Source of the DNA: Gracilinema caldarium DSM 7334
Lineage (GTDB): Bacteria; Spirochaetota; Spirochaetia; Treponematales; Breznakiellaceae
Direction: 5' to 3'
DNA: 64,000 bases
Assembly: GCF_000219725.1 (NCBI RefSeq)
Contig: NC_015732.1
Location: 2,170,001 to 2,234,000 of the forward strand
Shown here: in pieces, positions 36,494 through 58,135 of the stretch
Position numbering within the stretch: the stretch's first letter is position 1
Layout: each line of letters starts with the position of its first letter
The notes under the pieces: generated by a model
Seen by the model: only the letters and a program-made list of their open reading frames with translations
Told to the model about the DNA's origin: nothing
Databases searched by the model: none
Translations under genes and position numbers: made by a program

Positions 36494-37495
36494 TCACAAA
36501 ACTGTCAGATTTGTACCTGTCAGATTTTGACCAGAGAAAGCCGGGATGTACCGATCCCGGCCGTCCTGGGCAAAGTAATCCTCCAGCACACCAATCATGC
36601 CGCGACGATCCCGTTCCCGCCCTAGAAGGGTCCGTACATGGTGAGCCCAGGTAAGATTGTCGCAGAAATACAGGAAAAACTTCTTTGCCCGGCTTTCAAA
36701 ATACTCCGGGGGCTGGTACTGTTCTAAAAGCCCAAGGAAACGGTCCGCCACAGCCAGAAGATCGATGGCAGGTAGGGGCTCCCGCAGACCTTCCAGCGAT
36801 CGGGCTTGGGCAAAAATCCAGGGGGCCTTTACCGCAGCTCTGCCTACCATTACAGCGTCACAGCCGCCTTTCGCGCGGTGGACCAGCTGAGATGCGTCTT
36901 CTATATCCCCATTGCCAGCCACAGGAATAGTCAGGGCCTTCTTCACTACATCCACGGCGGTCCACCGCGCGCGGCGCTTGAGCTTTTCCTTGCTGGTCCG
37001 CGGATGGAGGGTAATGAGGTCCACACCTTCCCGTTCAAGCCCCTGGCAGAAGCTCACCAGGCGGTCCAGATTATCGTCGGAACCAAGCCGCAATTTTACA
37101 CTGAACCGGTGGTGGCGAATTGCATGTCTGAGGCGGCCTACTAGGGAAAAGGCTTCGTCGGGATGGTCCATCCACCAGACACCGGCTCCGATGCGGACAA
37201 TTTCCGGTGCGGAACAGCCCATATTGAGGTCAATTCCCCGGCATTCCCGGACATCCAGAAGTTCAGCGGCTTTCGTAAGGGTGTCCGCATCGGAGCCCAC
37301 CAGCTGATACACCAGTTTATCCGGCACTGGGCCGTTATCAAGATAATAGATTTCTAATGGATTGGCTGCCAAAAGGGATGGGGCACTGAGCATTTCAGAA
37401 AAATATTCATCGCAGCCACCAAATTCATCAATAAGCTGACGCAGAGCCCGGTGACTTAGGGCTGCCATGGGAGCAAGTAAATAGGGAACCCTCAT
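36494..37495 (-). CDS. dus: tRNA-dihydrouridine synthase
   Basis: 333 aa FMN TIM-barrel enzyme of the Dus family: LLAPMAALSHRALRQLIDEFGG, the catalytic Cys in GIDLNMGCSAPEIVRIGAG, TLHPRTSKEKLKRRARW, IPVAGNGDIEDASQLV, GCDAVMVGRAAVKAPW. It reduces uridines in tRNA. The subclass (DusA, B or C) cannot be read from here. The ATG has no Shine-Dalgarno sequence and is 6 bases after a TACAGT box. Confidence 0.92.
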   Translation of the reverse strand: MRVPYLLAPMAALSHRALRQLIDEFGGCDEYFSEMLSAPSLLAANPLEIYYLDNGPVPDKLVYQLVGSDADTLTKAAELLDVRECRGIDLNMGCSAPEIVRIGAGVWWMDHPDEAFSLVGRLRHAIRHHRFSVKLRLGSDDNLDRLVSFCQGLEREGVDLITLHPRTSKEKLKRRARWTAVDVVKKALTIPVAGNGDIEDASQLVHRAKGGCDAVMVGRAAVKAPWIFAQARSLEGLREPLPAIDLLAVADRFLGLLEQYQPPEYFESRAKKFFLYFCDNLTWAHHVRTLLGRERDRRGMIGVLEDYFAQDGRDRYIPAFSGQNLTGTNLTVL

Positions 37496-37501
37496 GGGCA
37501 G

Positions 37502-37507
37502 ACTGTA
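37502..37507 (-). promoter_or_regulatory. -10 box of dus
   Basis: TACAGT on the minus strand, with a weak TTTAAT 17 bases upstream. ATG follows after 6 bases. Confidence 0.4.
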
Positions 37508-37575
37508 GCATAAACATAGTAGATATTAAAGACTGTTTATATGACAAAAAAAGGTTAAAAAAGCTTTTTCAACCC

Positions 37576-37604
37576 TTGCGTTTTTATATATTTCATAATA
37601 TATT
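37576..37604 (+). promoter_or_regulatory. promoter of the DeoR-led operon
   Basis: TTGCGT (37576-37581), 17-base spacer, TATATT (37599-37604). The five bases before it, AACCC, are the same as at the adk promoter. Confidence 0.6.
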
Positions 37605-37627
37605 TGAAAAGATTTCATAATCTTTTC
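37591..37627. promoter_or_regulatory. candidate DeoR-family operator
   Basis: Direct repeat TTTCATAAT at 37591-37599 and 37613-37621 (22 bp apart, two helical turns), interleaved with a perfect inverted repeat GAAAAGAT (37606-37613) / ATCTTTTC (37620-37627). It covers the -10 box and the transcription start. Confidence 0.55.
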
Positions 37628-37643
37628 GAAAAAGGATAGAAAT

Positions 37644-38399
37644 ATGAATGAAAGTTTAAATGAAAGAGAACGATTAATTCTCGATAAACTCTCACAACTG
37701 GGCTCAATATCGGTTACTGATTTGGCAACAGAGTTACAGTTATCGGAAGTAACAATCAGATCGGATTTGAAAGGCCTCGAAGAAAAGGGATGGCTTCAGC
37801 GAACTCGAGGTGGAGCGGCTCCAGCATATCATCGAGATATTCTTGAACGACAACGGCTTCATACAGAAGAAAAACAGGCAATCGCCAGGGCTGCGGCCGA
37901 GCTGGTTCAAGATGGTGATGTGATTATGATCGAGGCAGGAACTACCACAGCACTCATCGCCCGTTATCTGGTAGGTAAACGGGATGTGCATATTGTTACC
38001 AACTCTACGCTCGTTTTTTCTTATGCCCGTATGAATCCAGCTTTACAAATCACTATGACAGGCGGTGAATTTCGGCGCCCTACGGAATCATTAGTAGGAC
38101 CAATAACGCTAGAAACAATCAGCCGGCTGAATGTGCGTCTTGCTTTTGTCGGAACCGATGGTTTTAGCCTGCATCGTGGAATGACAACGCACCTTGTAGA
38201 AGGTGGAGAGATTGTAAAAGCCATGAAAGCCCATGCAGAACAGACCATTTTGGTTGCCGACTCGAGCAAGTACGGAAAAGTTGGTTTTGTTAGTGTGCTT
38301 CCCTTGCAGGAAGTAGCGCTTATTATAACGGATCGCAACCTCAGTTCCCAGGCGATTACGGAATTGCAGGAAGCTTCTATATCGGTGCAAGTAACATAA
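37644..38399 (+). CDS. DeoR/GlpR-family transcriptional repressor
   Basis: 251 aa. The N-terminal winged helix reads RERLILDKLSQLGSISVTDLATELQLSEVTIRSDLKGLEEKGWLQR with the RTRGGA turn; the C-terminal DeoR sensor domain has EAGTTTALIARYL, TNSTLV and a C-terminal DSSKYGKVGF motif. DeoR proteins sense phosphorylated sugars. It is the first gene of the E2-E3-E1-PHP-SDR-FGGY-SorE string (9 bases before E2), so it likely controls that operon and itself. No strong Shine-Dalgarno sequence except AAAGGATAG. Confidence 0.93.
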   Translation: MNESLNERERLILDKLSQLGSISVTDLATELQLSEVTIRSDLKGLEEKGWLQRTRGGAAPAYHRDILERQRLHTEEKQAIARAAAELVQDGDVIMIEAGTTTALIARYLVGKRDVHIVTNSTLVFSYARMNPALQITMTGGEFRRPTESLVGPITLETISRLNVRLAFVGTDGFSLHRGMTTHLVEGGEIVKAMKAHAEQTILVADSSKYGKVGFVSVLPLQEVALIITDRNLSSQAITELQEASISVQVT

Positions 38400-38408: not shown

Positions 38409-39803
38409 ATGGCCCATATCGTTATTATGCCACGACAAGGTAATACGGTTGAATCCTGTATCATTGTCGGTTGGAATAAGAAAGAAGGAGATGAAGTATT
38501 GGAAGATACTCCCCTCTGTGATGTAGAAACGGATAAGGCAACCTTCGAAGTTGTAGCTGGTGCGAAGGGGACGCTCTTAAAAACCTTACATGAAGCAGGG
38601 GATGATGTACCGGTTCTGCAACCTATTGCTATTATAGGAGAAGCCGGCGAGGATTGGCAAACAATACTGGCAAATGCTCAAGGTATCACAGAAAAAACTA
38701 TCGCTGACCAGGAAACACTCAACACAGAACAGCCCATTGACGGCTCCATGCCAGTATCTCCCCGAGCACGGAACCTGGCGGCCCGGGCAGCCCTGGACCT
38801 TACAGGAGTTTCAGGTACAGGACCTGGCGGCAGAATAATTGAACGGGATGTGCAGTCAATTCTGGAATATCGGCAACCCTTAACCGCCGCTGCCCGGGCC
38901 GCCGTAGCAGAAGGTGGTACAGCAGACTTATTGCCAACAGAAGGATCTGGAATCGGATCTAGAATTCGAACCGCAGATTTGAAAACAGGCCTCGCAGAGG
39001 GGGGAATGCATGATCAAAATAGTACAGAAAAGACACAAGAGCCTCAGGCCATGGGGGCAGTAATTCGAGGAGGGGCTGCCTCTGCTATCACCGAGGAACC
39101 CATCAAAGGCATACGAAAGCTCATTGCAGACCGGATGCTCGAGTCTCTATCGAGTACTGCCCAATTTACGCTCAACAGCCACGCCCGTGTAGATCGAATG
39201 CTCGATTTGCGGCAGCGTTTTAAAACCTCTCAACCGGATTTAGGACTTTCTGGTATTACCCTTAACGATCTAGTGTTGTTTATGGTATCCCGAATCTTAC
39301 CTCTCTATCCTTTTATGAATGCTCATAAAAACGATGACACCCTCATCACCTACAAACAGGTTCATCTTGGCATGGCGGTAGATACCCCCCGGGGTCTTAT
39401 GGTCCCGGTGATTCGTAATGCGGATCAACTCAGCCTGGTTCAAATTTCAGCAGAAGCAAAGCGGCTTGCGTCAGCCTGCCAACAGGGGACTATCACCCCC
39501 GATGAATTGTCTGGATCGACCTTCACAGTAACAAACCTAGGCAATTTGGGCATTGAAAGCTTTACTCCGGTCATCAATATACCGGAAGTTGCAATTCTTG
39601 GCGTATGTGGAGTGGAGCTTAAACCACTTGCACAAGCGGGGACCCTTAATGGGGCTCTCGAACCAAGCGAAATACAGTTTGTACCCCATATCGGATTAAG
39701 TCTTACGATTAATCACCAGGTAGTTGACGGAGCTCCAGCAGCCCGATTCCTTAAAGCCCTCTGTGATGGCATCAGTCAGGTTGATCTCTGGCTCGCCCGA
39801 TGA
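38409..39803 (+). CDS. 2-oxoacid dehydrogenase E2 (dihydrolipoyl acyltransferase)
   Basis: 464 aa. Lipoyl domain at residues 1-78 with the lipoyl Lys in CDVETDKATFEV; a peripheral-subunit-binding domain at about 117-150 (VSPRARNLAARAALDLTGVS); a second, shorter, similar segment at about 158-195 (PLTAAARAAVAEG); and a catalytic domain from about 230 with the active His in LTINHQVVDGAPAARFL. It carries the acyl group from E1 to CoA. A duplicated binding domain would be unusual. The ATG has AAGGAGG 5 bases upstream. Which substrate the complex uses is discussed under findings. Confidence 0.93.
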   Translation: MAHIVIMPRQGNTVESCIIVGWNKKEGDEVLEDTPLCDVETDKATFEVVAGAKGTLLKTLHEAGDDVPVLQPIAIIGEAGEDWQTILANAQGITEKTIADQETLNTEQPIDGSMPVSPRARNLAARAALDLTGVSGTGPGGRIIERDVQSILEYRQPLTAAARAAVAEGGTADLLPTEGSGIGSRIRTADLKTGLAEGGMHDQNSTEKTQEPQAMGAVIRGGAASAITEEPIKGIRKLIADRMLESLSSTAQFTLNSHARVDRMLDLRQRFKTSQPDLGLSGITLNDLVLFMVSRILPLYPFMNAHKNDDTLITYKQVHLGMAVDTPRGLMVPVIRNADQLSLVQISAEAKRLASACQQGTITPDELSGSTFTVTNLGNLGIESFTPVINIPEVAILGVCGVELKPLAQAGTLNGALEPSEIQFVPHIGLSLTINHQVVDGAPAARFLKALCDGISQVDLWLAR

Positions 39804-39816
39804 AGGAGATATAGCC

Positions 39817-41226
39817 ATGTATGATGTAGTAATTATCGGTGGCGGTCCTGCGGGTTATCTCTCCGCTGAACGGTTAGGCCATGGTGGGAAAAAGGTCCTT
39901 TTAATCGAAAAGTCCTTTCTCGGTGGTACTTGCCTGAATGTGGGGTGCATCCCCACAAAGACCCTTTTAAACTCCGCAAAACTCTATGTTCATGCACTGG
40001 AAGCAGATCGATTTGGTATTCACTGTGAGAGAACTACCTATGATTGGCAAGCTATTCAAGCATGGAAAACTGAAGTGGTGAGTAAGCTCCGTGCAGGTAT
40101 TGCGGGGATGATGAATAACTACAAGGTCACTGTTATGGAAGGAACCGGTGAACTGGTTTCAGCCCCAAAGGGTGATGCAGGGGCACGAGTTCGCATTACT
40201 CTGCAAGATGGTACGGTTCAGGAAACAACTGGACGGACAGTGCTTATTTCCACAGGTTCCGTACCTGTACTGCCACCAATACCGGGGGTACAAAACAATC
40301 CACACATTCTTGATTCTACCGGGCTTTTAGAAACGACAAAGGTTCCCACATCCCTCACTATTATCGGCGGTGGGGTTATTGGTGTCGAGTTTGCGTCCCT
40401 CTTTGCTGCTTTGGGAAGTAAGGTGACAGTAATTGAGATGATGGATGAGATTGTACCTTTTATGGATCGGGAACAGGCGCCGATTTTGCGGCGGGCTATG
40501 AAAGGGGTGGACTTCCATCTGGGATGCCGGGTGGAAAAAATAGAAGGAAGTCGGGTCTGGTATAAGAATCTGGACGGCAGAGAAGACCAGATTGAGTCTG
40601 AGTTAATCCTCATGGCTGTGGGCCGGCGGCCACAACTTTCAGGTTGGGGGGCCGAGCGAGTATGTCTAGATATACGTCGTCAGGGGATCCTTGTGGATGA
40701 CCGTATGCGTACTAATGTACCAGGAGTTTGGGCTGCCGGAGATGTAACGGGGAAAAGTCTATTAGCCCATACAGCATATCGGATGGGCGAAGTTGCGGTC
40801 TCGGACATTCTGACCTATCTCGACCGTCTTGAGGGTAAGAATGAGACACCACGGAATAATCGCATGCGTTATGATGCCATTCCCTGGGCAATCTATGGCA
40901 TACCCGAAGCGGCCGGCGTTGGAATTACCGAACAAGAGGCAGTGGAAAGAGGATTTTCGATAACAAAGGCAAGTCTGCCCATGCGAATATCCGGCCGTTT
41001 TTCCGCTGAGAACAGCTTTGCTGCACCGGGAGCTTGCAAGGTTATTGCTGATGCAACCACTGGAAGGATCCTTGGAGTACATGCAGTAGGGGCTTATGCC
41101 TCTGAGTTTATTTGGGGTGCAGCGGCTCTCATTGAACAGGAACTGCGGATAAAGGATGTTCAAGAACTTATTTTTCCCCATCCTACGGTCAGTGAAATAA
41201 TCCGTGAAGTTGTGTGGACGATGTAA
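39817..41226 (+). CDS. lpdA: dihydrolipoyl dehydrogenase (E3)
   Basis: 469 aa flavoprotein: FAD-binding MYDVVIIGGGPAGYLSAERL, redox disulfide GGTCLNVGCIPTK, NAD-binding IIGGGVIGVEFASLFAALGSKV, GVWAAGDVTGKSLLAHTA, and the C-terminal HPTVSEII with the catalytic His-Glu pair. It reoxidises the lipoamide of E2 with NAD+. ATG at 39817 follows AAGGAG (39803-39808) by 8 bases; the frame is open upstream inside E2 but that start is rejected. It is dedicated to this operon. Confidence 0.95.
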   Translation: MYDVVIIGGGPAGYLSAERLGHGGKKVLLIEKSFLGGTCLNVGCIPTKTLLNSAKLYVHALEADRFGIHCERTTYDWQAIQAWKTEVVSKLRAGIAGMMNNYKVTVMEGTGELVSAPKGDAGARVRITLQDGTVQETTGRTVLISTGSVPVLPPIPGVQNNPHILDSTGLLETTKVPTSLTIIGGGVIGVEFASLFAALGSKVTVIEMMDEIVPFMDREQAPILRRAMKGVDFHLGCRVEKIEGSRVWYKNLDGREDQIESELILMAVGRRPQLSGWGAERVCLDIRRQGILVDDRMRTNVPGVWAAGDVTGKSLLAHTAYRMGEVAVSDILTYLDRLEGKNETPRNNRMRYDAIPWAIYGIPEAAGVGITEQEAVERGFSITKASLPMRISGRFSAENSFAAPGACKVIADATTGRILGVHAVGAYASEFIWGAAALIEQELRIKDVQELIFPHPTVSEIIREVVWTM

Positions 41227-41268
41227 GCCTAATCAGATAAGCGCAATACTATATAAGGAGTAAGCACT

Positions 41269-43725
41269 ATGCCAAAATCATTATTGATTAACCCTGGGGA
41301 GGTACGGAAAGCCCAGGTTATCAAAATTAAGGATATTCCGGTTAATCAGTATAGATCGGATATTCAAAAAGAAGTGGCAACCTATGGAAAGAAACGGCTA
41401 CTCAGGGTTTGGTATGACATGGTAACCATTCGCGAATTTGAGAGCATGCTCAATTCGTTTAAGACCATGGGATCTTGGAACGGTATAGAATATAACCATA
41501 AAGGGCCAGCTCATCTTTCCATCGGACAAGAAGCCGCTGCGGTTGGCCAGTGCATCAACCTGACAATTGATGACTTCATATTTGGCAGCCACCGTAGTCA
41601 TGGAGAAATACTTGCCAAATGCTATTCTGCTATCTGGCAATTGGATGAGGTTTCACTTGAACATATTATGAAAGATTTTTTAAATGGTGACACCCTGTCG
41701 ATCGCAGAAAAGGTCCCCTATAGGAACATAAAAGACCTGGCGGAAAATTTTGTACTCTACGGAACGCTGGCAGAAATTTTCGCCCGCAAAGCCGGATTTA
41801 ACCGTGGTTTGGGTGGATCTATGCACGCCTTCTTTACCCCCTTTGGATCCATGCCGAACAATGCCATTGTAGGCGGCTCAGCGGATATTGCCACAGGAGC
41901 GGCCCTCTATAAGCGGATAAACAGAAAGCCGGGTATTGTGATCGCCAATATCGGAGATGCCTCCATGGGTTGTGGTCCCGTATGGGAAGCGATGATGCTT
42001 GCTTCTATGGATCAGTATCGGAACCTCTGGCCTGAAGATGTGGGCGGTGCTCCGCCAATTCTTTTTAATTTCTTTAATAATTTCTACGGTATGGGTGGAC
42101 AAACCATGGGGGAGACCATGGGGTACCAAGTCTTAGCACGAGTAGGAGCGGGAGTGAATCCTGAGAACATGCACAGTGAGCGGGTCGATGGGTATAACCC
42201 CCTTGCGGTAGCTGAGGCTATTGCCCGGAAAAAAGAATTACTCCTCGCAGGAAAAGGCCCGGTTTTGCTCGATACCCTCACCTATCGTATATCTGGCCAC
42301 TCACCTTCCGATGCTTCCAGCTATCGGACCCAGGAAGAAATTAAACTCTGGCAAGAAGCCGATGCAATAGAAGCCTATGGAAATTATCTTATAACGAACG
42401 GGCTCTGTACCAAGGAAGAACTGGAGACCCAGCGGGAAACTATCCAGGAGAAACTGCTCGAAGTGGTAAAACTAGCGACCAACGATACTATATCAGAACG
42501 GGTTTCAGGTCAATTTATCGAATCTGTCATGTATTCTCACAGTAGGGTTGATAAAATGGAGGATCGGTCGGCAGAGCTCCTCCAAAATCTTAATGAAAAT
42601 CCACGGGTCAAAGCCCTGCAGGGGAAATATCGTTATGGCTTTGACAGCGAGGGTAAACCTGTACCCAAGAACAAGGCCTTTCAATACCGTGATGCCCTTT
42701 TTGAAGCCCTGGCATATCGTTGTACCATAGATCCCACCATGGCAGCCTGGGGCGAAGAAAACCGAGACTGGGGCGGAGCCTTTGCGGTATATCGGGGACT
42801 TACCGAACTACTTCCTTATCACAGGCTCTTTAACAGTCCTATTTCGGAAGGAGCTATAGTCGGCGCCGGTGTAGGCTATGCCCTTTCGGGAGGCCGGGCG
42901 GTGGTTGAACTTATGTACTGCGATTTTATGGGCCGAGCGGGAGATGAAATTTTTAACCAGGCAGCAAAATGGCAGGCTATGTCAGCGGGACTTTTAAAAA
43001 TGCCCTTAGTTATCCGTGTTTCGGTTGGCAATAAATATGGAGCCCAGCACAGCCAGGACTGGTCTGCCCTAGTGGCTCACATTCCAGGGCTAAAAATCAT
43101 GTTCCCCGCCACACCCTATGACGCCAAGGGCATGATGAATCTTGCACTACGGGGCACTGATCCAGTCATTTTCTTCGAAAGCCAACTGCTATATGATGTT
43201 AGCGAACAGTTTGAAAAGAATGGTGTACCCCAAGCTTACTATGAGATTCCCGAAGGCGAGCCCGCCATTCGCAAACAGGGGAAAGATATAACCATCGCAA
43301 CCCTTGGGGCAACCTTATATAAAGCTCTTGAAGCAGCCCGGATATTGCAAGAACGATGGGGTCTGGAAGCAGAAATTATAGATTTGCGATTTATCAATCC
43401 TCTAAATTATGAAGTTATCATTGAATCGGTGAAAAAAACTGGAAAGCTTGTGTTAGCCAGCGATGCGGTAGAACGAGGGTCTTTTCTGCACACCGTGGCT
43501 AGCAATGTACAGACCCTCGCGTTTGATTATCTTGATGGACCGGTGGCGGTGGTTGGCAGCCGGAACTGGATTACTCCGGCAGCAGAAATGGAACATCTTT
43601 ACTTCCCTCAAAAAGAATGGATTATCGATACCATCCACGAACGGCTTCTGCCCTTAAAGGGGCATGTACCAACCACAGTACAAAGTATCGGTGAGATTCT
43701 GCGCCGGAACCGACTTGGGGTGTAA
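41269..43725 (+). CDS. fused E1 alpha-beta subunit of a thiamine-diphosphate 2-oxoacid/acetoin dehydrogenase
   Basis: 818 aa in one chain: an E1-alpha half (residues about 45-400) with [37 protein letters not shown], the ThDP motif [13 protein letters not shown] ending in [10 protein letters not shown], and an E1-beta half (residues about 465-810) with [65 protein letters not shown] and a transketolase C-terminal domain. In most bacteria these are two genes. The alpha half has about 45 extra residues after SHGEILAKC (from [18 protein letters not shown]). It decarboxylates or cleaves a keto substrate and passes the acyl unit to E2. No 2-oxoacid-specific residues can be assigned by eye. Confidence 0.9.
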
Positions 43726-43728
43726 GCA

Positions 43729-45105
43729 GTGATGAAAGAACGCATCAACGATCCGGCCTGTGGGTCCATGGAACGGCTACAAGCGTTGCGGCACTATATT
43801 CAGAAGGTATTCTTAGAACAGGGAGAACAATGGGTGCCGCAAACAAACGGTGAAGTAAACAATCACATTCATACGATATATAGCTTTAGCCCCTATACAC
43901 CTGCCATGGCAGCGCTTAAGGCATGGGAATCGGGGCTCGAAGCAGCCGGTTCAGTGGATCATGACTCTCTGGGAGCAGCGGAAGAAATGCTCACGGCCTG
44001 TGAAATCCTTGGTATAGGAGGCTGTGTTGGCTTTGAAGTCCGGGTCAATTTTAAGTACGGCCCTGATGGAAATCCCGGCCCTTTTGCAGAGCGGAAAATA
44101 AACAATCCCGATTCTCAAGGTCTTGTGTACATGACTGTTCAGGGTATTCCGCGACAAGCCTACGGTAAGGTTCGGAACTTTTTACAGCCCCTTCAGGAAG
44201 TCCGGAATAAACGGAACCGAGCCATGGTAGAACGGATCAATACAAAGCTCAGCCACGTGGGCCTAAAAAACCTTTCTTTTGAAAAACACATACTCCCCCT
44301 CTCTCAAGCCCATACAGGAGGAAGTGTTACCGAACGGCATTTGATGGCTGCTGTAGCCCGCTTGCTCATTGAGGAATTCGAAGCAGGACCAGCCCTTGTG
44401 GGAGCCTTGGGTTCTCAATTTGGAATTAAGCCATCACCTAAACTCACGATGTTACTTGGCGACAGAACCAATCCCCACTATCTTTTCGACCTTATTGGTT
44501 TATTAAAAACAGACTTTCTGCCCGATGTGTTTATCCAACCCGATGACTCAGAATGTATACCCGCAAAACAGGTTGTAGATTTTGCTCGATCCATTGGTGG
44601 GATTCCTGCTTATGCATATCTGGGTGATGTAAAAGATTCGCCTACGGGAGATAAAAAGGCTGAACACTTTGAAGATGCCTATTTGGATGAACTTTTTCAG
44701 GAATTACAACGATTAGGCTACCAGGCAGTAACCTATATGCCACCACGAAACACGAAAGAACAACTTCAAAGAGTGCAGAATCTCTGTAAACAATATAATT
44801 TTATGGAAATTTCTGGAGTAGATATAAACAGTTCCCGTCAGTCTTTTACCTGTCCTGAGGTCCTTCTACCTGCGTTCCACCACTTGGTAGATAGCACCTG
44901 GGCGCTCATAGCCCATGAACGACTGGCATCCATCAATATTCACTATGGCCTTTTTCATCCAGAAAATCCATTAGCGGGACTCTCACTCGCAAAACGGATC
45001 GCCGCCTATGCCAAGATTGGTCAAAGCTTTGATCGCCAGCATCCAGAGGAGAGTGCCCGCCGCATTATTCAAGAAAAGCAACTGGAGGTCTATCGCTATG
45101 AATAG
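43729..45105 (+). CDS. PHP-domain protein of unknown function
   Basis: 458 aa. The N-terminal metal-site signature of PHP phosphoesterases is present: VNNHIHTIYSFSPYTPAM (HxH), AAGSVDHDSLGAAEEM (DHD) and GCVGFEVRVNF (Glu). The segment IGGIPAYAYLGDV near residue 288 is where PHP proteins normally have a His (G-P-x-x-A-H-P); here it reads YAYLGD, so one metal ligand may be changed. Late HERLASINIHYG could supply others. It is the fifth gene of the operon (3 bases after E1) and its stop overlaps the SDR start. A hydrolase on a phosphorylated intermediate is possible but unproven. Confidence 0.7.
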   Translation: MMKERINDPACGSMERLQALRHYIQKVFLEQGEQWVPQTNGEVNNHIHTIYSFSPYTPAMAALKAWESGLEAAGSVDHDSLGAAEEMLTACEILGIGGCVGFEVRVNFKYGPDGNPGPFAERKINNPDSQGLVYMTVQGIPRQAYGKVRNFLQPLQEVRNKRNRAMVERINTKLSHVGLKNLSFEKHILPLSQAHTGGSVTERHLMAAVARLLIEEFEAGPALVGALGSQFGIKPSPKLTMLLGDRTNPHYLFDLIGLLKTDFLPDVFIQPDDSECIPAKQVVDFARSIGGIPAYAYLGDVKDSPTGDKKAEHFEDAYLDELFQELQRLGYQAVTYMPPRNTKEQLQRVQNLCKQYNFMEISGVDINSSRQSFTCPEVLLPAFHHLVDSTWALIAHERLASINIHYGLFHPENPLAGLSLAKRIAAYAKIGQSFDRQHPEESARRIIQEKQLEVYRYE

Positions 45106-46351
45106 ATTGATGCAAATTATTGCGCCCATACTAAGAGGTCTCTATCTGCATGCGACAGGACAAAGTGTGGTGGTTTTACCCGGAAATACACTGGTAGAAA
45201 CAGAATGTCATATTGATGTGCGGCCAGCTATGCAGGGTGAAGATATACATGAAGAGATGGCAGCAAAAATCGCCTCAGAAACATGTAAATCCTGGATTTT
45301 TGAACACAGTCCTTCCGGTGTGGATGCACTTCAAACACATGGAATATCACAACAATTGCCTTCATGTATACAGGTACAAACTACTTCGAATATATACACC
45401 TTCTGGGTAGACTGGGACTTGGATCGTTGCAGGGATCGGATACAGCGTCTCGACACACAACCACTTGAGATTTCATCTCAAACAAAGTCCATGTCAAGCT
45501 ATGAACAATTATTCCAGAGTCGTATTCGGATTGCAGAAAGGAAAGTTGCCCTGATAACCGGTGGTGCCCAGGGATTTGGAGAGGAACTTGTTCAAGGGCT
45601 CGTCGGTGCAGGAGCTTTAGTCTTTATTGCAGATTTGAATTATAATGGTGCCCAGACTTTGGCAAATCGACTCAATACCCACTATGGCAGAACCGTAGCC
45701 CTACCAGTTGCCTGTAATGTGGCCGAGGAGACCTCTGTTCAGGAAATGGTTGCCCACATTGTAGAACAAGCTGGTGGCCTCGATATTTGTGTAAGTAACG
45801 CCGGTATTCTGAAAGCGGGGAGTGTTTTAGATCAGGAACTTGCCGCATTTAAGCTGGTGACCGATGTTAATTATACAGCTTTTTTTCTGGTAACTAAATA
45901 TGTGGCTCAGGTAATGCGATGCCAGGCATTAACAGCCCCAGAGTGGTATACAGATATTATTCAGATTAATTCCAAATCCGGTTTAGAAGGTTCAAATAAG
46001 AATGGAGCCTATGCGGGAAGTAAATTTGGCGGCATCGGCCTAGTACAAAGTTTTGCTATGGAACTGGTGGAATATAACATTAAGGTAAATGCCATTTGTC
46101 CCGGTAATTTTTTTGATGGCCCCCTCTGGTCAGATCCACAGAAGGGTCTCTTTGTTCAATATCTTCAGACAGGTAAGGTCCTGGGAGCCAAAACAGTCAC
46201 CGATGTTCGTGCTTTTTATGAGGCCAAAATACCTATGAAACGGGGTTGTACCGGGCCTGATGTACTCCGGGCTCTTTTTTACATTATTGAACAGGTTTAT
46301 GAAACCGGCCAGGCAGTCCCAGTAACTGGCGGCCAGGTCATGCTTCATTAG
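45098..46351 (+). CDS. SDR-family NAD(P)-dependent dehydrogenase with N-terminal extra domain
   Basis: 417 aa, about 160 longer than a classical SDR. Residues about 1-145 match no domain I recognise. From residue about 148 the Rossmann fold is clear: VALITGGAQGFGEELVQGL, an Asp at the end of strand 2 (FIADLNYN) that favours NAD, CVSNAGI, and the active site NSKSGLEGSNKNGAYAGSK (Ser, Tyr-x-x-x-Lys). The family includes sorbitol-6-phosphate 2-dehydrogenases. GGAGG (45084-45088) precedes ATG 45098; it overlaps the PHP stop by 8 bases. Confidence 0.85.
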   Translation: MNRLMQIIAPILRGLYLHATGQSVVVLPGNTLVETECHIDVRPAMQGEDIHEEMAAKIASETCKSWIFEHSPSGVDALQTHGISQQLPSCIQVQTTSNIYTFWVDWDLDRCRDRIQRLDTQPLEISSQTKSMSSYEQLFQSRIRIAERKVALITGGAQGFGEELVQGLVGAGALVFIADLNYNGAQTLANRLNTHYGRTVALPVACNVAEETSVQEMVAHIVEQAGGLDICVSNAGILKAGSVLDQELAAFKLVTDVNYTAFFLVTKYVAQVMRCQALTAPEWYTDIIQINSKSGLEGSNKNGAYAGSKFGGIGLVQSFAMELVEYNIKVNAICPGNFFDGPLWSDPQKGLFVQYLQTGKVLGAKTVTDVRAFYEAKIPMKRGCTGPDVLRALFYIIEQVYETGQAVPVTGGQVMLH

Positions 46352-46361
46352 GAGGTACGTT

Positions 46362-47873
46362 ATGGAGTATGCCATTGCGGTGATTGATATAGGAATGACT
46401 AACAAAAAGGTAGCTATTTACGATGAACAATTGCATCAGCTCGAGGCCCATTACCGTACCTTTGATCCAGTACCGGTAAACAATTGCCAGACCCATGACC
46501 TGGCCGCCATCGAAGATTGGTTCATCACTGAATTACAACATGCTGCCGCCAAATATCCTATCAGAGCAATTGCTATAACGACCCATGGGGCTACCTTTGT
46601 TTGTGTAGGCCCTGATGGTAAACCGTCGGTTCCCTGTGTCTATTATACCCATGAACCGGGAGAAGCCTTTCATCAAGAATTTTATGCCCGATTCGGAATG
46701 CCAGAAGAGCTCCAGGCAAAAACGGGGACTCCCTATTTCAAAGCCCTCATAAATCCAGCAAAGGGTATCTTTTTTGCCCAAAAACAGTTTCCTGAAGCAT
46801 TTCAAAATACAGTTTATATCCTGAACTATCCCCAGTACTGGGGGTATAGGTTTACTGGCGTCGTTGGTGCAGAAAACACCTATGTGGGTTGTCATACTTA
46901 CCTATGGGACTGGACAAAAGCTGCCTGGTCCAGTGTAGCTCAAGGGTTAGGCATCACCAGCCTATTGCCTCGGGAACTTAAGCATTCCTGGGATATACTG
47001 GGAACCATTACCCCAGAGATTGCTCGAAAAACAGGGCTTTCAACAAAAACCATAGTCACCATGGGTATCCATGATTCTAATGCATCCTTGCTTCCCCATT
47101 TTGCAAAAAAAGGACGACAAGGATTTGTTCTTAATTCTACTGGCACCTGGTGTGTTATCATGAATCCGGTCACCAGTTATGGATTTAACGAAGAGGAACT
47201 AGGAAAGGTAGTTTTTTTTAACCAGTCAGCCTTTGGAACTCCGGTAAAAACAGCCATATTTCTTGGTGGCTATGAATTTGAAACCTGGTTAAAAGTACTG
47301 CAGGAATTACATCAACGGCAGGATATACCACCCTACCGACAAAAACTGTATCAGACGTTGCTTGCCCGAAAAGACACCTTTCTACTTCCAGAACTCACTG
47401 CTGGTTCAGGACAATTTCCAGGGTCCCACCCTCGGGTTATTGAAAAGGGAAAAGCCTATCACTACGGGGATATTCTAACCGGTACAGCAATTCCACCCTG
47501 TTTTAGTGATTATGAACGGGGGATAGCAGTGCTCAGGATTTCCCTGGTTATGCAGACTCTGACCGCGCTGGATCGGACAGGCATGTACAAAGGTCAGGAA
47601 ATCTTCACTGAAGGGGGGTTCCGTAAAAATGAAGCTTACAATGTTATGCTTTCAGCAGCTTTACCTGAAAATCCTTTAGCCCTTACTGATATTGCAGAGG
47701 CCACAGCCTTTGGAGCTGCTATGACCGCAAAGATGGCCCTAACCGACAAAAGTCTAGAGGCACTCAAGGACGACTTTACGGTACAGTATCAGGAGGTTCC
47801 CAAGACAGCACTTCCTGAGCTAGCGGATTACCGACAAGCCTGGATTCATCAAATTGAAGGAAACAAAGACTAA
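46362..47873 (+). CDS. FGGY-family carbohydrate kinase
   Basis: 503 aa sugar kinase with the actin-like ATPase fold: VIDIGMTNKKVAIYDEQ (phosphate 1), ITTHGATFVCVGPDG, the middle catalytic Asp in MGIHDSNASLLPHF, FVLNSTGTWCVIM (phosphate 2), and a C-terminal FTEGGFRKNEAYNVMLSAAL segment with EATAFGAAM. Closest in feel to rhamnulokinase/fuculokinase-type members. It phosphorylates a ketose or polyol in the cytoplasm. AGGAGG precedes the ATG. Confidence 0.9.
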   Translation: MEYAIAVIDIGMTNKKVAIYDEQLHQLEAHYRTFDPVPVNNCQTHDLAAIEDWFITELQHAAAKYPIRAIAITTHGATFVCVGPDGKPSVPCVYYTHEPGEAFHQEFYARFGMPEELQAKTGTPYFKALINPAKGIFFAQKQFPEAFQNTVYILNYPQYWGYRFTGVVGAENTYVGCHTYLWDWTKAAWSSVAQGLGITSLLPRELKHSWDILGTITPEIARKTGLSTKTIVTMGIHDSNASLLPHFAKKGRQGFVLNSTGTWCVIMNPVTSYGFNEEELGKVVFFNQSAFGTPVKTAIFLGGYEFETWLKVLQELHQRQDIPPYRQKLYQTLLARKDTFLLPELTAGSGQFPGSHPRVIEKGKAYHYGDILTGTAIPPCFSDYERGIAVLRISLVMQTLTALDRTGMYKGQEIFTEGGFRKNEAYNVMLSAALPENPLALTDIAEATAFGAAMTAKMALTDKSLEALKDDFTVQYQEVPKTALPELADYRQAWIHQIEGNKD

Positions 47874-47939
47874 GACATTAACTACAAGGGACTTAAAAGC
47901 TAAAGTTTTTTGAGGTCCCTACAATCCAAAGGAGGTACT

Positions 47940-49202
47940 ATGAAAACGAAGGCGGTTCGCCTTTACGGCGTTAACGATTTACGGCTGGATGAATTTGAAC
48001 TTCCTGCACTACAGGATGATGAAATTCTCGCCCGGGTTGCGTCTGATTCTATTTGTATGTCTACCCATAAGCTGGCAATGCAAGGTGAAAAACACAAACG
48101 GGTTCGGCATAACCTGACTATAAATCCAATAATTGTGGGACACGAATTTTGCGGCGTTATTGAAAAGGTTGGGAAAAAATGGGCAGGCAAATATAAGGAA
48201 GGATCTCAATTTGCAATTCAACCCGCCTTGAATTATCAGGGGACCCTTTGGGCACCGGGCTATTCCTATGAATATATCGGGGGAGATGCCACGTATATTA
48301 TAATCCCCAATGAGGTTATGGAAATGAATTGTCTTTTGGAATATAAGGCTGATAATTTTTACATGGGCTCCCTCTCAGAACCGGTGTCCTGTATTGTCGG
48401 CGCCTTTCATGCCCAATATCACACTAAACCCGGTTCCTATGTACATGAAATGGGCATAAAAGAAGGGGGAGCCCTTGCGCTTTTAGCAGGTGTCGGTCCT
48501 ATGGGATTAGGAGCGATCGACTATGCAATCCATAACAGCCGAAGACCCTCTCGGGTGGTAGTAACTGATATTGATGAATCCCGACTTGCACGGGCTGCAC
48601 AACTTCTCACAGTGGAAGAAGCAAACAAACAGGGGGTAGAACTCATCTATGTAAATACCAAAGACATAGCAGATCCCGTTGCGTACCTTAAAGAACTTAA
48701 TAAGGGTAAATTCTACGATGATGTTTTTGTATTCGCTCCTGTGAAACCTGTCGTAGAAATGGGAGACCGGCTTTTAGGACAAGATGGATGCTTGAATTTC
48801 TTTGCAGGTCCTACGGACCCAACCTTTTCTGCCATGCTTAATTTCTACAATGTCCACTACGAATCCCATCACCTCGTTGGAACCAGTGGTGGCAACACAG
48901 AGGATATGATTGAATCCCTTAACATGATGGCGGCGGGCATGCTAAATCCGGTTTTTATGATTACCCATGTAGGCGGCTTAAATGCTGTACCAGAGACAGT
49001 CATCAATCTTGATAAAATACCTGGCGGGAAGAAACTCATCTATACCCATAAGAAGCTGGATCTTGTCGCCATCAGCGACTTTGCCGAGCGGGGAAAATCG
49101 GATCCATTTTATGCTGAATTAGCAACAATTTGCGAACGGCACCATAATTTGTGGAGCAAAGAAGCAGAGGATTTCCTGCTCGCCCATGCCCCTGAAGTTT
49201 AG
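47940..49202 (+). CDS. zinc-binding dehydrogenase resembling L-sorbose-1-phosphate reductase
   Basis: 420 aa medium-chain dehydrogenase. GHEFCGVIEKVGKKWAG and SEPVSCIVGAFHA in the catalytic domain, and a Rossmann segment LALLAGVGPMGLGAIDYAIHN with an Asp at the end of strand 2 (VVVTDIDESR). The long N-terminal part without a structural-zinc Cys cluster and the C-terminal VGGLNAVPETVINLDKIPGGKKLIY agree with the SorE-like group (L-sorbose-1-phosphate reductase). ATG at 47940 follows AAAGGAGG. It is the last gene of the operon before the HD protein. Confidence 0.82.
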   Translation: MKTKAVRLYGVNDLRLDEFELPALQDDEILARVASDSICMSTHKLAMQGEKHKRVRHNLTINPIIVGHEFCGVIEKVGKKWAGKYKEGSQFAIQPALNYQGTLWAPGYSYEYIGGDATYIIIPNEVMEMNCLLEYKADNFYMGSLSEPVSCIVGAFHAQYHTKPGSYVHEMGIKEGGALALLAGVGPMGLGAIDYAIHNSRRPSRVVVTDIDESRLARAAQLLTVEEANKQGVELIYVNTKDIADPVAYLKELNKGKFYDDVFVFAPVKPVVEMGDRLLGQDGCLNFFAGPTDPTFSAMLNFYNVHYESHHLVGTSGGNTEDMIESLNMMAAGMLNPVFMITHVGGLNAVPETVINLDKIPGGKKLIYTHKKLDLVAISDFAERGKSDPFYAELATICERHHNLWSKEAEDFLLAHAPEV

Positions 49203-49208
49203 TATATT
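49203..49208 (+). promoter_or_regulatory. -10-like box before the HD gene
   Basis: TATATT, 6 bases before the HD ATG; the -35 is poor. Confidence 0.3.
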
Positions 49209-49214
49209 TACTAT

Positions 49215-50030
49215 ATGAAATCACCAAAAGAATTGGCCATGGATAAAAAGCTCCTGGCCACCGTAGAAGAATTAATCGGCAAAGGTATACCCCTTAAGGC
49301 TACCCAAATACTCCTTGAAGATGATGAAATTCACGCAATGCAGGAGTATGCCAATACAGTCTCTATAAAACGGCTAGGTTACAATGATCACGGCCCGGTC
49401 CACATGCGGACCGTAGCCCTGAATGCAACAATTATGATGGGCCTCTTAAAACAGGCCGGGATCCGAACCAGCCTCGAAGCAGAAGAAGCGGGAACCTTCG
49501 AAGAAAGCCTCGTAGCGGTCCTTCTGGCTTCTTTTCTCCATGATCTGGGAATGACTATTGGCAGGCAGGACCATGAACTCCACAGCTGTTACCTGGCCTA
49601 CCCCATCATCGATAGGATCTTACAGGTGCTCTATCCTCAGGACATACAAAAGCGGGTCGTAACCCGGTCCCTGGCAATCGAAGGTATTGTGGGCCATATG
49701 GCAGGCCGCAAAATCCATTCCTTGGAAGCGGGAATCATTCTCATTGCCGACGGCTGCGACATGGAAAAGGGCCGGGCCCGCATCCCCATGGCCTTAGCCC
49801 ACGAACCGCGGGTAGGAGACATTCACAAGTATTCAGCCAATTCTATTGAAACGGTAAAACTTACCGCAGGGACAGAAAAGCCCATCCGCATCGATGTAAC
49901 CATGTCTGCAGAGGTGGGCTTTTTCCAGGTCGAAGAGGTACTCCTCGGCAAAATTGCTTCCAGCACCGCCAAGGGCTTTGTAGAGCTCTACGCCTCAGTG
50001 GTGGGCGGAGAGCCAAAACGGTATTTGTAA
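49215..50030 (+). CDS. HD-domain phosphohydrolase
   Basis: 271 aa. HD motifs: NDHGPVHMRTVALNATIMM (first His near residue 58), LLASFLHDLGMTIGRQDHELHS (HD near residue 114), IVGHMAG and ADGCDMEKGRARI later. It should hydrolyse a phosphate ester or nucleotide with a dinuclear metal; the substrate is unknown. It starts 12 bases after the SorE-like stop, but without a Shine-Dalgarno sequence; an ATG at 49239 (MDKKLL) is an alternative. Codon use is more GC-rich than in the operon before it. Confidence 0.82.
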   Translation: MKSPKELAMDKKLLATVEELIGKGIPLKATQILLEDDEIHAMQEYANTVSIKRLGYNDHGPVHMRTVALNATIMMGLLKQAGIRTSLEAEEAGTFEESLVAVLLASFLHDLGMTIGRQDHELHSCYLAYPIIDRILQVLYPQDIQKRVVTRSLAIEGIVGHMAGRKIHSLEAGIILIADGCDMEKGRARIPMALAHEPRVGDIHKYSANSIETVKLTAGTEKPIRIDVTMSAEVGFFQVEEVLLGKIASSTAKGFVELYASVVGGEPKRYL

Positions 50031-54422: not shown

Positions 54423-55969
54423 TTATGTGTCAGCCTGTAGCTTAAAGAAGTCCATTAAGCTTTGCAGGTCCCGGGCCATGTCGGCCAGGGATTCAGAGGT
54501 AGAGGCGATTTCTTCTGCCATGGCGGCATTTTGCTGGACCACCTGATCAAGCTGAGTCATGGCATTGTTTATTTGACCGACTCCTGCGCTCTGTTCTATC
54601 GCAGCCCGGCTAATTTCCTGAATAAGCCGGGCCGTCTTTTGTATGTCCGGCACCAGGGCCTCGAGAATTCTACCTGTTTCTGATGAAACAGAAGCGGTCT
54701 CTTGGGACAGGGCAATTATTTCGGTGGCCGCATTCTTGCTCCGTTCTGCAAGTCTTCTCACTTCTTGGGCCACAACGGCAAAGCCCTTGCCATGTTCACC
54801 AGCCCTGGCGGCTTCTATGGCTGCATTTAATGCTAAAAGGTCTGTTTGTCGGGCAATTTCTTCTATTACCAAAACCTTTTCTGCTATTTTATTCATAACC
54901 AGAATAGCATTCTGAACTGCTTCCTTGCTCTGTATAGCCCGTTCAGCGGCAGACCGTGCAATGAGGTCCGTTTCCTTTGCATGGTCTGCGGTCATCGCAA
55001 TATTTGATGCCATTTGTTCTACTGACGAAGCGACTTCTTCTGCCACCGAAGCCTGTTCCGAAGTGCCTGAGGATAAGTTCTGCGCTGAGTTACTCAAATC
55101 CCGGCTGGCAAATACGATATCATTAGATGCTTGCCGTACCTGGCTGACGATTTTAGAAAGCTCCTCGGTCATATTTTGCAAAGACCGTGCCAAATCGCCA
55201 ATCTCGTCGCTTCTGCCAGCGCTATGTTCATCAATATGATTAAAGAGTTTTCCCTGGGCTATGGTGTTAGCCTGACCTATAATGGTGAGAATTGGTACAG
55301 TTATGCTGTTAATAAGGATAAGAAGAACCACAATAATCACCAAGGATACGAGAATACTTGCAATCCTGAATTGAACCATGGCCATATCCAGATCCCGGAA
55401 TGCTTCTTTATCGGGGATGGCGAAGGTGAAAAGATAACCAAAATTGGTGTATCCGTAATATATGGTGTGGGAACTGCCGTTAATTTCAATCCGCTCTATA
55501 CGGTCAATAGTCCCTGCGGGCAGACTTTGGTTCAGTTTTGTGACCCAGGACAGGAATGCTGGTTTCTGGGCATCGTCTGCAGAATCCTTTCGGTAGGGTT
55601 GGAAGATATATTCCTGATTCTGAGCATACAGATAACGACCCGTTGCGGGGTCTAACAGGAAAAGCTGGGAATGCTCGGTTATTTTTACATCCTTAAGCAA
55701 TGTTTCCAGAAAACCCAGGGTCAGGTCCGCCGTAGCAACCCCAAGAATGCGGTTATTTGTATCCACCATAGGACAGTCCACCGTAATATAGATGGAACTG
55801 GTTCGTTTTTCTGGGGGTATATCGGCTAACGTTTGTCCCTGTAAGAGGTAGAGGTAGGGTTCAGTAATAATATATTCCTTAGGCAGTGGGGTTTTCCGGT
55901 CATGGTTCAGGGGCAGGGCTGAGGTGTACCAGTCTTCGACCACATAATTATAGTTGATGTAGGGCCTAC
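54423..55969 (-). pseudogene. methyl-accepting chemotaxis protein, C-terminal part (split by IS)
   Basis: Continues the gene broken at 57528. It begins in the extracellular sensor domain ([20 protein letters not shown]), has a membrane segment ([19 protein letters not shown]), a HAMP region ([20 protein letters not shown]) and the cytoplasmic signalling domain with the hairpin tip [20 protein letters not shown]. An in-frame GTG at 55943 could start a shortened product, but the first membrane helix is lost. Removing the IS with one 3-bp repeat rejoins both parts in one frame as a 680-aa receptor. Confidence 0.85.
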
Positions 55970-57525
55970 TGAAAATGTCTAAAAATGATATTTCAAAACT
56001 TTTTTACGTTAAAATGGGTTTAATTTAGTATACTAAAACTTTCAAATATGATTTATGAGGTTTAAAACCAAGTAAAAATAAAAAGCGCATAAAAAGATCC
56101 CTCAGGATTTTTTCACAGTTGGTCAGCAATACACATACCATAATTGCTGTTTCACTAGTTTCGCGTAATTTTTCATAGATTGTACCAAGACCAAACTTTC
56201 GTTTCATATATCCAAAGCCACCTTCAATCGCTTGTCGAATGGCTTCGTCAAGTCTTTGAATCTTTCGTAGCTGTCGTACTATCTTTTTATTCTCTAATGT
56301 TTCTTTAATCGGTCTGCCTAAGGGTGGTCCAGACAATCGTATTCCTCGAGCTTCACAATAGGCTCGGTTTGCTCGTGTCCGATATATTTTATCGGCATGC
56401 ACCGATTCCGGATATCGACCACATCGCCTCTTATATTTTTCTATTTGTGTTGGCAAATCTTCTTGTTCGTTATAGGGTTCCCATTGTAATCGATCTATAA
56501 AAATCATCCCGTGTTCGGTCATCGATGCTGATAGTTTTGCTCCGAATTCAAAGGCCGCTTTTGCTTTACCTCGGGCTATTGGTCGTACATGGGGTTGACT
56601 GATACTGACGATTTTTCCCGATATCGAATGGGTCTTTCCCTTATACATCTGTACCTGTTGCCGGTAAACCTCATGTATCACGATAAGATCACGTCGCTGT
56701 TTTGCACTCAACGTTGTACTGGGAACCTTGTTTTGTAATTCATTGATAGTCCGTAAATTACGTCGTATGTATTGGAGTTGGGTCCGAATCGCTCTGCGTA
56801 TTTCTTTTTTTGTTCTTCGTCGCCCTCGTATAAAATTGAGATATTTGATACGGGCCTGTTTTCTATAGGTTCGTGGTTTTATGGTGAGCTCACTCGCTTC
56901 ATATAACGTATCAATTATCTTTTCTGTTTTCCTTCGCGCTTCATCCAATAAAGTGACATCATGGGGATGCCGGATATCCTGGGGGACGCACGTGGCATCT
57001 ATAATGAGTTGCCCTCGATTTCCATGATCATGGTCATCCTTTTGGTTTTCTTTGTTCTGTTTTTTTTCAGATTCTGCTTCTACCTGTTCTTGATACCGTT
57101 TCGCTATCAACTCATTTATCTGTGCTATTGCATCAGGTCCAAGCCGTTTTCGAAAATGAACCATCATGCTTGGATCAAAGGGTTTTTCATCTTTGTAAGA
57201 TTCATATCCTAAAAAATATTGCAGGTAATGGTTCTCTCGTATTGTTTCTACCGTTTCTTCATCTGTTAATTGTAATTTCTCTTTTATCAATAATGATCCC
57301 AAGGCGAGCCGTACGGTCTTGGCTGTTCTTCCAATTCGTTTTGAAAAACATTTTTTATATTCAGCTTCTATCTCTTCCCATGGAATAATTGCGGCTAATC
57401 GTACCCATCGATTATCTTCTCGTAAATGTCCTCCGAAGGGTACATAAAAGTCTTCAAACTCAGGTACCTGTTCCTTTTCCTTATACATCGTTACCCCATA
57501 GTAAAGTGCACGCTTTTTAAGGCCT
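55970..57525 (-). mobile_element. IS5/IS1182-type insertion sequence
   Basis: About 1556 bp inserted in the receptor gene. Limits are inferred by rejoining the receptor frame: TAC (plus strand) at 55967-55969 and at 57526-57528 may be the target duplication. The uninterrupted target would read GTAGGCCCTAC, a near-palindrome. Clear terminal inverted repeats could not be established by eye, so the ends may be off by some bases. It contains one transposase gene. Confidence 0.75.
56025..57488 (-). CDS. IS5/IS1182-type DDE transposase
   Basis: 487 aa. An N-terminal DUF772-like part (LALGSLLIKEKLQLTDEETVETIREN, YFLGYE, DPSMMVHFRKRLG), then a DDE core: first Asp in LIIDATCVPQDIRHPHDV, second Asp in SVHADKIYRTRANRAYC, and Glu in the EGGFGYMKRKFGLGTIYEKL segment. 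A Lys/Asp-rich, His-containing spacer (residues about 138-155) precedes the first Asp. It looks intact and may be active. Its start is 37 bases inside the element. Confidence 0.92.
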   Translation of the reverse strand: MYKEKEQVPEFEDFYVPFGGHLREDNRWVRLAAIIPWEEIEAEYKKCFSKRIGRTAKTVRLALGSLLIKEKLQLTDEETVETIRENHYLQYFLGYESYKDEKPFDPSMMVHFRKRLGPDAIAQINELIAKRYQEQVEAESEKKQNKENQKDDHDHGNRGQLIIDATCVPQDIRHPHDVTLLDEARRKTEKIIDTLYEASELTIKPRTYRKQARIKYLNFIRGRRRTKKEIRRAIRTQLQYIRRNLRTINELQNKVPSTTLSAKQRRDLIVIHEVYRQQVQMYKGKTHSISGKIVSISQPHVRPIARGKAKAAFEFGAKLSASMTEHGMIFIDRLQWEPYNEQEDLPTQIEKYKRRCGRYPESVHADKIYRTRANRAYCEARGIRLSGPPLGRPIKETLENKKIVRQLRKIQRLDEAIRQAIEGGFGYMKRKFGLGTIYEKLRETSETAIMVCVLLTNCEKILRDLFMRFLFLLGFKPHKSYLKVLVY

Positions 57526-58024
57526 TACCCCTTTCTTCCGTGCACTTCTTATTGAGATTATCTCTGTATTTGCTTCTTTTGTAAAGAGTTGTTTGTTTTT
57601 CAGGAAGCCCGATGTACGTCTCATCGAGCTGAAACTTTCCATCGCTGTATGATGCATAGGGTCCAAAAAATTCATATCCGGGGATAACGCCCTTATCATA
57701 AAAGAGCCCTCCGCCCGCCAGGGGTTGGAATCCTAAGGTCGACAGCAAGAGGTTGATGGCCCCTTCGGGGCTCATGCCTTTTTTGTCCCGCAGGGATTCT
57801 CCGACGATGCCGCCGATTTTTCCAAGGGTCCTGGCGGTAGCAAGCTGGCTGTCGGTGTAGCGATTAAAGTCCTGTATATATTTATAGACCGTAAGGCCCA
57901 TCTTTTCATGGATTTGTTTTTTCATTGTATTGGATAGATTCATCTGGTTCACCAGAAGGGTAATGCCAAAACCAAGGACAAGCACCAAGAGGATGCTGAT
58001 GGTAAATTTAGTCTTAATGTTCAT
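57526..58024 (-). pseudogene. methyl-accepting chemotaxis protein, N-terminal part (split by IS)
   Basis: 166 codons from ATG at 58024 (GGGAGG 7 bases upstream). It has the first membrane helix (ISILLVLVLGFGITLLVN), then a dCache-type sensor with GGGLFYDKGVIPGYEFFGPYASYSDGKFQLDETYIGLPEKQ. The frame enters the IS after EERG and soon stops. With the part at 54423-55969 it made one receptor. Confidence 0.85.
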
Positions 58025-58135
58025 GAGCAAGCCTCCCATTGTATAGTCTATGCAATAGCGCTACAAATACAAGAAAAATAGTAGGAGAGATGGTGAAGGC
58101 CACAGTTACAGGGATGACTGTGGGTGATGGGCTGG

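Follow-up and report, generated by a model that had tools for sequence, protein, structure and literature searches.

A tandem array of 11-bp direct repeats as the probable autoregulatory operator of a DeoR-led catabolic operon in Gracilinema caldarium

The promoter of a DeoR-led operon in the spirochaete Gracilinema caldarium DSM 7334 carries interleaved direct and inverted repeats, which raises the question of which sequence unit the adjacent regulator would recognise as its operator. The locus lies in a stretch of 64,000 nucleotides (contig NC_015732.1, positions 2,170,001 to 2,234,000, forward strand), which was analysed as a whole, is referred to as the window and provides the coordinates used below unless stated otherwise. 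The features at issue are the following.

37576..37581, + strand: -35 box TTGCGT, at 17-bp spacing to the -10 box
37599..37604, + strand: -10 box TATATT, from the promoter fit, called by consensus
37606..37627, no strand: 9-bp inverted repeat, read as a by-product of array units 1 to 3 (see below) in this genome and not conserved
37644..38399, + strand: deoR, a DeoR-family regulator and the proposed binder of the array, with HTH_DeoR and DeoRC above the Pfam cut-offs
38409..50030, + strand: presumed controlled block, encoding E2, E3, a fused E1, a PHP-like protein, an SDR, an FGGY kinase, a zinc dehydrogenase and a last protein (HD motif by eye)

The spacing of the promoter boxes would place the transcription start at about 37611. 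According to the original prediction, TTTCATAAT repeated at 22-bp spacing and an inverted repeat with the arms GAAAAGAT and ATCTTTTC make up the operator. Both repeats are present: the TTTCATAAT copies occupy 37591-37599 and 37613-37621, i.e. at a spacing of 22 bp, and the inverted repeat is perfect, although its arms had been given one base too short, since they measure 9 bp each (GAAAAGATT-TCAT-AATCTTTTC, 37606-37627); it has bases in common with the second TTTCATAAT copy. Dinucleotide shuffles (n=2000) of the intergenic region 37496-37643 yielded a direct repeat of at least 10 bases at a spacing of 9-40 in 35 cases, an inverted repeat of at least the observed length in 49, and both jointly in none. 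Together the two repeats exceed chance, each of them singly being only an event of about 2 percent.

Conservation upstream of orthologous operons, set beforehand as the refuting test, goes against these literal repeats and in favour of an 11-bp array that underlies them. In none of the other 87 upstreams do the final 130 bases contain TTTCATAAT, and inverted repeats whose arms measure at least 8 bp are equally rare in relatives and in shuffles (2 of 67 relatives, 1.15 expected), so that neither the pair nor the palindrome holds up as the conserved unit. Arms of at least 7 bp are about twice as common as expected (9 of 67, against 4.05), an excess that would be produced by the self-complementary core TTCGAA.

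The upstreams compared here derive from two sources. An orthologue survey covered 58 genomes including that of G. caldarium, 18 of which have a close DeoR orthologue (55-90 percent identical in the 17 others), and a scan of named genome contigs provided the best 80 of 173 loci, with titles that are spirochaete except for three 'bacterium'. The window, these 80 loci and 11 survey loci form 92 rows, from which 88 upstreams were obtained on removal of two rows with fewer than 120 bases upstream and two duplicates, and 68 non-redundant upstreams (window included) on removal of 19 with at least 75 percent identity to a kept row and one with Ns. An 11-column unit fitted to three tandem copies was derived from 65 of the 68, the window and two same-genus upstreams being withheld, and this matrix is behind the 14.2-bit score of the window, the list of arrays for the genome-wide model, the register to the -10 box, the searches at distant DeoR and RhaS loci, the reverse arrays, the -35 half-site and the run counts. 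The search for the best array of each of the 68 loci and the bit scores of single units are cross-validated.

As far as sequence conservation tells, what is conserved is a series of directional 11-bp repeats in tandem, approximately WWTCGAAAGN, and not the TTTCATAAT pair or the palindrome. Word counts over the 68 upstreams, made without any prior motif, put CGAAAG on top (61 against 4.1 expected) and CTTGCA second (28 against 1.6), with TCGAAA at 47 against 7.5. Pairs of [CT]GAA[AG] lie exactly 11 bp apart 54 times, compared with 0.51 expected and a maximum of 4 in 200 shuffles, 22 bp apart 25 times (0.45 expected) and 33 bp apart 8 times (0.42 expected), and never 10, 21 or 32 bp apart; lesser excesses appear at 5 bp (9) and 6 bp (6), with about 0.5 expected, and at a few other spacings. 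The fitted unit, approximately [GAT]WW[TA]CGAAAGN, is directional, its right half GAAAG being far stronger than the left.

Runs of at least three in-phase units occur in 54 of the 68 deoR upstreams and, among 1020 control tiles of the same length taken downstream of deoR, in only 1, a conservation that supports the original view of this promoter as a candidate operator for the whole block. In 58 of the 68 loci, no three-unit array anywhere in the locus, on either strand, scores higher than the one upstream of deoR. Arrays among the 68 upstreams usually comprise three or four units, and up to six; direct repeats with a period of 10-11 bp, as expected for DeoR-family operators, are found among these upstreams as well as in the window. 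None of the upstreams of 12 more distant DeoR genes reaches 10 bits. As a separate observation, two loci (L022 and L024) show TTCGAAAGGTAACGAAAG, in which the half-site occurs twice at a spacing of 10 bp; the DeoR gene that follows is only 38-40 percent identical.

At the promoter of the window, six in-phase units run from 37590 to 37655, spanning the promoter spacer, the presumed start and the ribosome-binding site and reaching into codon 4.

37590..37600, + strand: array unit 0, ATTTCATAATA, 2.7 bits, in phase, containing the first TTTCATAAT
37601..37611, + strand: array unit 1, TATTTGAAAAG, 4.8 bits, with the register to the -10 box seen in most relatives
37612..37622, + strand: array unit 2, ATTTCATAATC, 2.6 bits, in phase, containing the second TTTCATAAT
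37623..37633, + strand: array unit 3, TTTTCGAAAAA, 6.8 bits, in phase, only its first 5 bases within the range of the original prediction
37634..37644, + strand: array unit 4, GGATAGAAATA, 3.1 bits, in phase, overlapping the presumed Shine-Dalgarno sequence
37645..37655, + strand: array unit 5, TGAATGAAAGT, 6.0 bits, in phase, overlapping the start codon and codons 2-4

The 22-bp direct repeat TTTCATAAT is thus part of array units 0 and 2, and the inverted repeat exists because units 1 to 3 chance to spell GAAAAGATT and AATCTTTTC in this genome. The range first singled out overlooked the unit at 37601 and stopped at 37627, past which the in-phase units at 37623, 37634 and 37645 extend. The six-unit run is the longest among the 68 upstreams and the only run of at least three units (at least 2.5 bits each) on either strand of the 64 kb. 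With the matrix trained without the window the array scores 14.2 bits, equalled in none of 300 shuffles, and in cross-validation it comes second in the 64 kb, outranked only by a frame of the same array that overlaps it.

The units of the window are degenerate and each of them scores low alone; there is one exact copy of TCGAAA (unit 3), and the other units vary. In a matrix-free lag test over 37586-37655, lag 11 is marginal (95 of 2000 shuffles), and lag 22 (0 of 2000) and lag 12 (3 of 2000) are both stronger. Since lag 11 is marginal and the genome-wide model described below misses the + strand array, the 11-bp reading of the window depends on the relatives, particularly those of the same genus. 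The three same-genus relatives, with DeoR proteins 86-91 percent identical, show mostly CGAAA or TGAAA units at the same positions, one of them (L033) with five in phase. The position of unit 5 is in phase in L033 (8.6 bits) and L034 (8.1 bits) and not in L032 (-6.9 bits). The bases of unit 4 may be due to the ribosome-binding site, and those of unit 5 to the protein sequence MNES.

Concerning the promoter, the C of an array unit coincides, modulo 11, with the base directly following the called -10 box (offset 0) in 41 of the 59 array-bearing upstreams, the register being different in the other 18. Overlap with the promoter or leader, as expected of a DeoR operator, is therefore observed for promoters called by consensus, with hand-set weights and a small bonus for a 17-bp spacer. 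The -35 box also has a character of its own. A C follows the TTG in 42 of 52 orthologous matches to TTG-N20-TANNNT, as against 42 of 182 matches in 0.69 Mb of background read on both strands, which is mostly coding, so that most of the 182 are not real promoters. No match to TTGACA-N17-TANNNT is found in the 68 upstreams, a few of which (e.g. L105, L108 and L111) have TTGACA with other spacers. Several arrays contain the variant [TC]GCAAG, whose reverse complement is CTTGC[AG], and the -35 box of the window coincides with a candidate half-site of this kind.

37574..37584, - strand: candidate reverse half-site AAAACGCAAGG on the -35 box, 9.1 bits with the unit matrix

This reverse unit outscores every forward unit there. 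Read in this way, 40 of the 52 orthologous -35 boxes reach at least 3 bits, compared with 4 of 34 matches in the window, a control that includes the operon's own promoter (3 of 33 without it). We infer that the -35 box doubles as a reverse half-site.

The forward array stays below 10 bits in nine of the 68 upstreams (cross-validated). Five of the nine (L017, L103, L106, L081 and L104) carry a reverse array of 10 to 25 bits, with 0 of 300 shuffles in each case; judged by eye, these arrays cover or adjoin the -35 box and extend upstream, except for that of L103, which spans -35 to -10. The reverse array of L097 is weak (5.1 bits, 2 of 300 shuffles), that of L102 is not significant (27 of 300), L076 has no array (40 of 300) and L110 a weak forward one. 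In the DeoR tree L017, L104 and L106 belong to one supported clade together with L097 and L102 (100/99), and L081 and L103 are placed elsewhere. Reverse-strand scores of 15 to 17 bits are also reached by some upstreams of the forward type (L035, L038, L052 and L098), a result to which the self-complementarity of the core TTCGAA perhaps contributes, and strand alone is therefore sometimes ambiguous. We regard as quite possible, though short of probable, a two-sided and flippable operator, in which the -35 box, with CTTGC[AG] largely replacing TTGACA, would serve as a reverse half-site anchor from which the array grows in one of two ways, with forward units downstream, the arrangement of the window and most relatives, or with reverse units upstream, that of a Treponema clade. 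If this were true, one repressor would keep one operon while its operator changes strand and promoter side.

Whole genomes were searched with a model (R1) for which 52 arrays of at least 18 bits were listed and 51 used, leaving out L072; three rows (L006, L015 and L019) and the three same-genus rows had been set aside beforehand. At E 0.1 it finds matches in 14 of the 58 genomes, and in 11 of the 14 the best match is the array before the deoR operon, in line with a local regulator; five of these 11 genomes (G001, G002, G003, G017 and G019) are absent from the model. Of the 18 genomes that have a close orthologue, 7, G. caldarium included, gave no R1 match at the deoR site at the same threshold. 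Seven matches, in five genomes, lay elsewhere, and the three of these that were inspected (L112, L134 and L135) showed no promoter.

In the G. caldarium genome the + strand array of the window was not recovered, the deoR operator appearing only as a weak - strand match (E 6.5) with six places scoring better; the search is weak here because the array of this genome scores low. It returned seven places at E up to 10, among the 150 of 1299 candidates that were scored, one being the deoR operator. Five of the six others are inside open reading frames and none was accepted as an operator: among them, genome position 1359154 (E 0.02) is within the 3' end of a - strand frame, 37780 (genome position; E 0.38) is by eye 20 bases inside an ABC sugar-transport ATPase gene, and the sixth place, 822268 (E 1.0), lies where a gene may begin. 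The palindrome with up to three mismatches has one place in this genome, the known one. The expectation that further sites would reveal the missing transporter was not borne out, since the absence of a convincing second site in this genome leaves no lead to it.

A transporter does appear beside the operon in another lineage. At locus L140 of genome G017, the genes that immediately follow the operon, on its strand, encode by eye a two-component system (kinase and response regulator) and a sugar ABC transporter. Its binding protein is classed as RhaS by NCBIfam (457.5 bits, cut-off 342.25), and this RhaS-type transporter is a candidate transporter for that lineage; the G. caldarium genome has no relative of the binding protein at E 1e-60. 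Among 15 RhaS loci, no array reaches 12 bits, the best noted being one of 11.1.

The first gene of the operon encodes a member of the DeoR family, with 48.9 bits for PF08220 (cut-off 21) and 172.3 bits for PF00455 (cut-off 31.8). Among solved structures, a profile search at E 1e-4 matched two proteins, a deoxyribose operon repressor, for the sensor domain only, and LrpA, for the helix-turn-helix. The E2 gene is next after deoR in all 17 loci with downstream DNA, the window included. Among the 17 relatives that have a close orthologue, gene order was compared in 14: eight show the whole series DeoR-E2-E3-E1-PHP-SDR-FGGY-ADH in collinear order, two are without the kinase, one is truncated at a contig end and three keep only DeoR-E2-E3-E1 in order. 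The last gene of the block was found only in the two same-genus regions that are long enough.

Several genes of the block are worth describing in their own right. At 41269-43725 the E1 alpha and beta domains are fused into one protein of 818 residues, beside E2 and E3 in a sugar-type operon. The SDR at 45098-46351 has about 145 N-terminal residues outside any family match. The product of 43729-45105 has no Pfam match and a weak NCBIfam match to nucleoside bisphosphate phosphatase, and that of 49215-50030 has no Pfam match and, by eye, an HD motif. Elsewhere in the window (54423-58039, - strand), a methyl-accepting chemotaxis protein gene is apparently split, by eye, by a transposase-like open reading frame at 56025-57488 into an N-terminal part (57491-58039) and a C-terminal part (54423-55943).

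For a conserved array that stands before the operon and mostly keeps one register to the -10 box, the reading that we favour strongly is that the region is the autoregulatory operator of the DeoR-family repressor encoded by the first gene, which would be bound to the 11-bp array. The DeoR protein would occupy the tandem direct repeats from the -10 box over the start towards the ribosome-binding site, and as 11 bp is about one helical turn per unit, all units would lie on one face of the DNA. Since the array covers the -10 box, the presumed start and the leader in 11-bp steps, DeoR subunits bound side by side would exclude RNA polymerase from the promoter, and this exclusion would silence the repressor and the catabolic genes together. 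The inducer that releases the repressor may then be an intermediate of the pathway, a sugar or sugar phosphate recognised by the DeoRC domain. It is likely an ordinary genetic switch, though a longer one than the literal repeats suggested.

What competes with autoregulation through the 11-bp array is, to begin with, a species-specific operator in which the repressor reads the TTTCATAAT pair, the palindrome or both as such. The joint rarity of the two repeats in shuffles and the strength of lag 22, the strongest periodicity in the window, speak for it; we consider it improbable given that TTTCATAAT is missing from all 87 other upstreams, that arms of at least 8 bp are not in excess in the 67 relatives (those of at least 7 bp numbering 9 against 4.05), and that CGAAA or TGAAA units occupy most of the corresponding positions in the three same-genus relatives. 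The palindrome could instead act as RNA, i.e. as a leader hairpin serving as attenuator or translational switch, and the 22-nt RNA does fold at -6.9 kcal/mol, with none of 200 shuffles as stable. However, a start near 37611 would remove most of the left arm, the leader from that start is not unusually stable (z -1.14), the arms are not conserved, no terminator-like site was seen in 37300-37900, and Rfam gave only two matches, both on the - strand and far under their gathering scores (26.7 of 60 and 17.9 of 65). An RNA leader element was accordingly rejected by folding and Rfam, there being no known family and, given the presumed start, no conserved hairpin in the transcript; we hold this role to be very unlikely.

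The array might also be bound by a regulator other than the adjacent DeoR, for example a global one, as the unit is short and A+T rich. This would fit poorly with an array that accompanies deoR orthologues and is the best genome-wide match in 11 genomes, with the scores at distant DeoR upstreams (0 of 12 at 10 bits or more) and RhaS loci (0 of 15 at 12 bits or more, one at 11.1), and with a half-site that is the same as that of RhaR, a tested DeoR-family repressor (PMC3870299), and we rate it as unlikely. Chance in A+T-rich promoter DNA, combined with Shine-Dalgarno and codon constraints, is in keeping with single repeats that are only 2 percent events and with a lag 11 that is marginal alone, but it is scarcely credible in view of the run counts (54 of 68 upstreams, 1 of 1020 tiles) and of the exact 11-bp spacing (54 against 0.51).

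Autoregulation by DeoR through the 11-bp array would give an uncharacterised DeoR regulon, present in many genomes with Treponema or Spirochaetaceae in their titles, a precise operator defined by unit, spacing and register, and would correct which repeat to mutate or search for. The natural series of arrays, with three to six units in forward or reversed orientation, would moreover be useful for the study of how DeoR proteins read direct repeats. Our literature search found no description of this spirochaete operator. Its architecture, tandem direct repeats read by a DeoR-family regulator, is already known from RhaR (see below). IolR of Bacillus subtilis, a member of the family, uses 11-mer direct repeats, with a consensus that presumably differs from the array unit described here.

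AxgR of Caldicellulosiruptor has a predicted DeoR-family site with tandem-repeat structure, and the DeoR-family sites of that genus, which overlap promoter elements or fall within leaders, are interpreted as sites of repression (PMC8579813); the tandem structure and the leader or promoter position are shared with the present array, the regulators being different and likened by description, not by sequence. The nearest parallel is RhaR of Chloroflexus aurantiacus, for which PMC3870299 describes four tandem TCGAAA sites upstream of rhaR in the rha operon, and a gel shift of a 38-bp fragment with these four sites, binding being abolished by L-rhamnulose. The tandem TCGAAA half-site, the DeoR-family regulator and the position before its own operon are common to both. 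There, however, the operon is one for L-rhamnose, whereas here it encodes E1, E2 and E3, a PHP-like protein, an SDR, an FGGY kinase and a zinc dehydrogenase. As no isomerase or aldolase of L-rhamnose catabolism was recognised among the nine operon proteins, two of them without Pfam match, the regulator is like RhaR in its operator and is not classed as RhaR. The units of the window are also more degenerate than those of Chloroflexus, and those in phase reach the start codon. Finally, the motifs of DeoR-family RhaR regulators in four taxonomic groups, as given in PMC3870299, consist of two imperfect direct repeats with a period of 10-11 bp, while the present arrays usually have three or four units, and up to six, mostly in one register to the -10 box.
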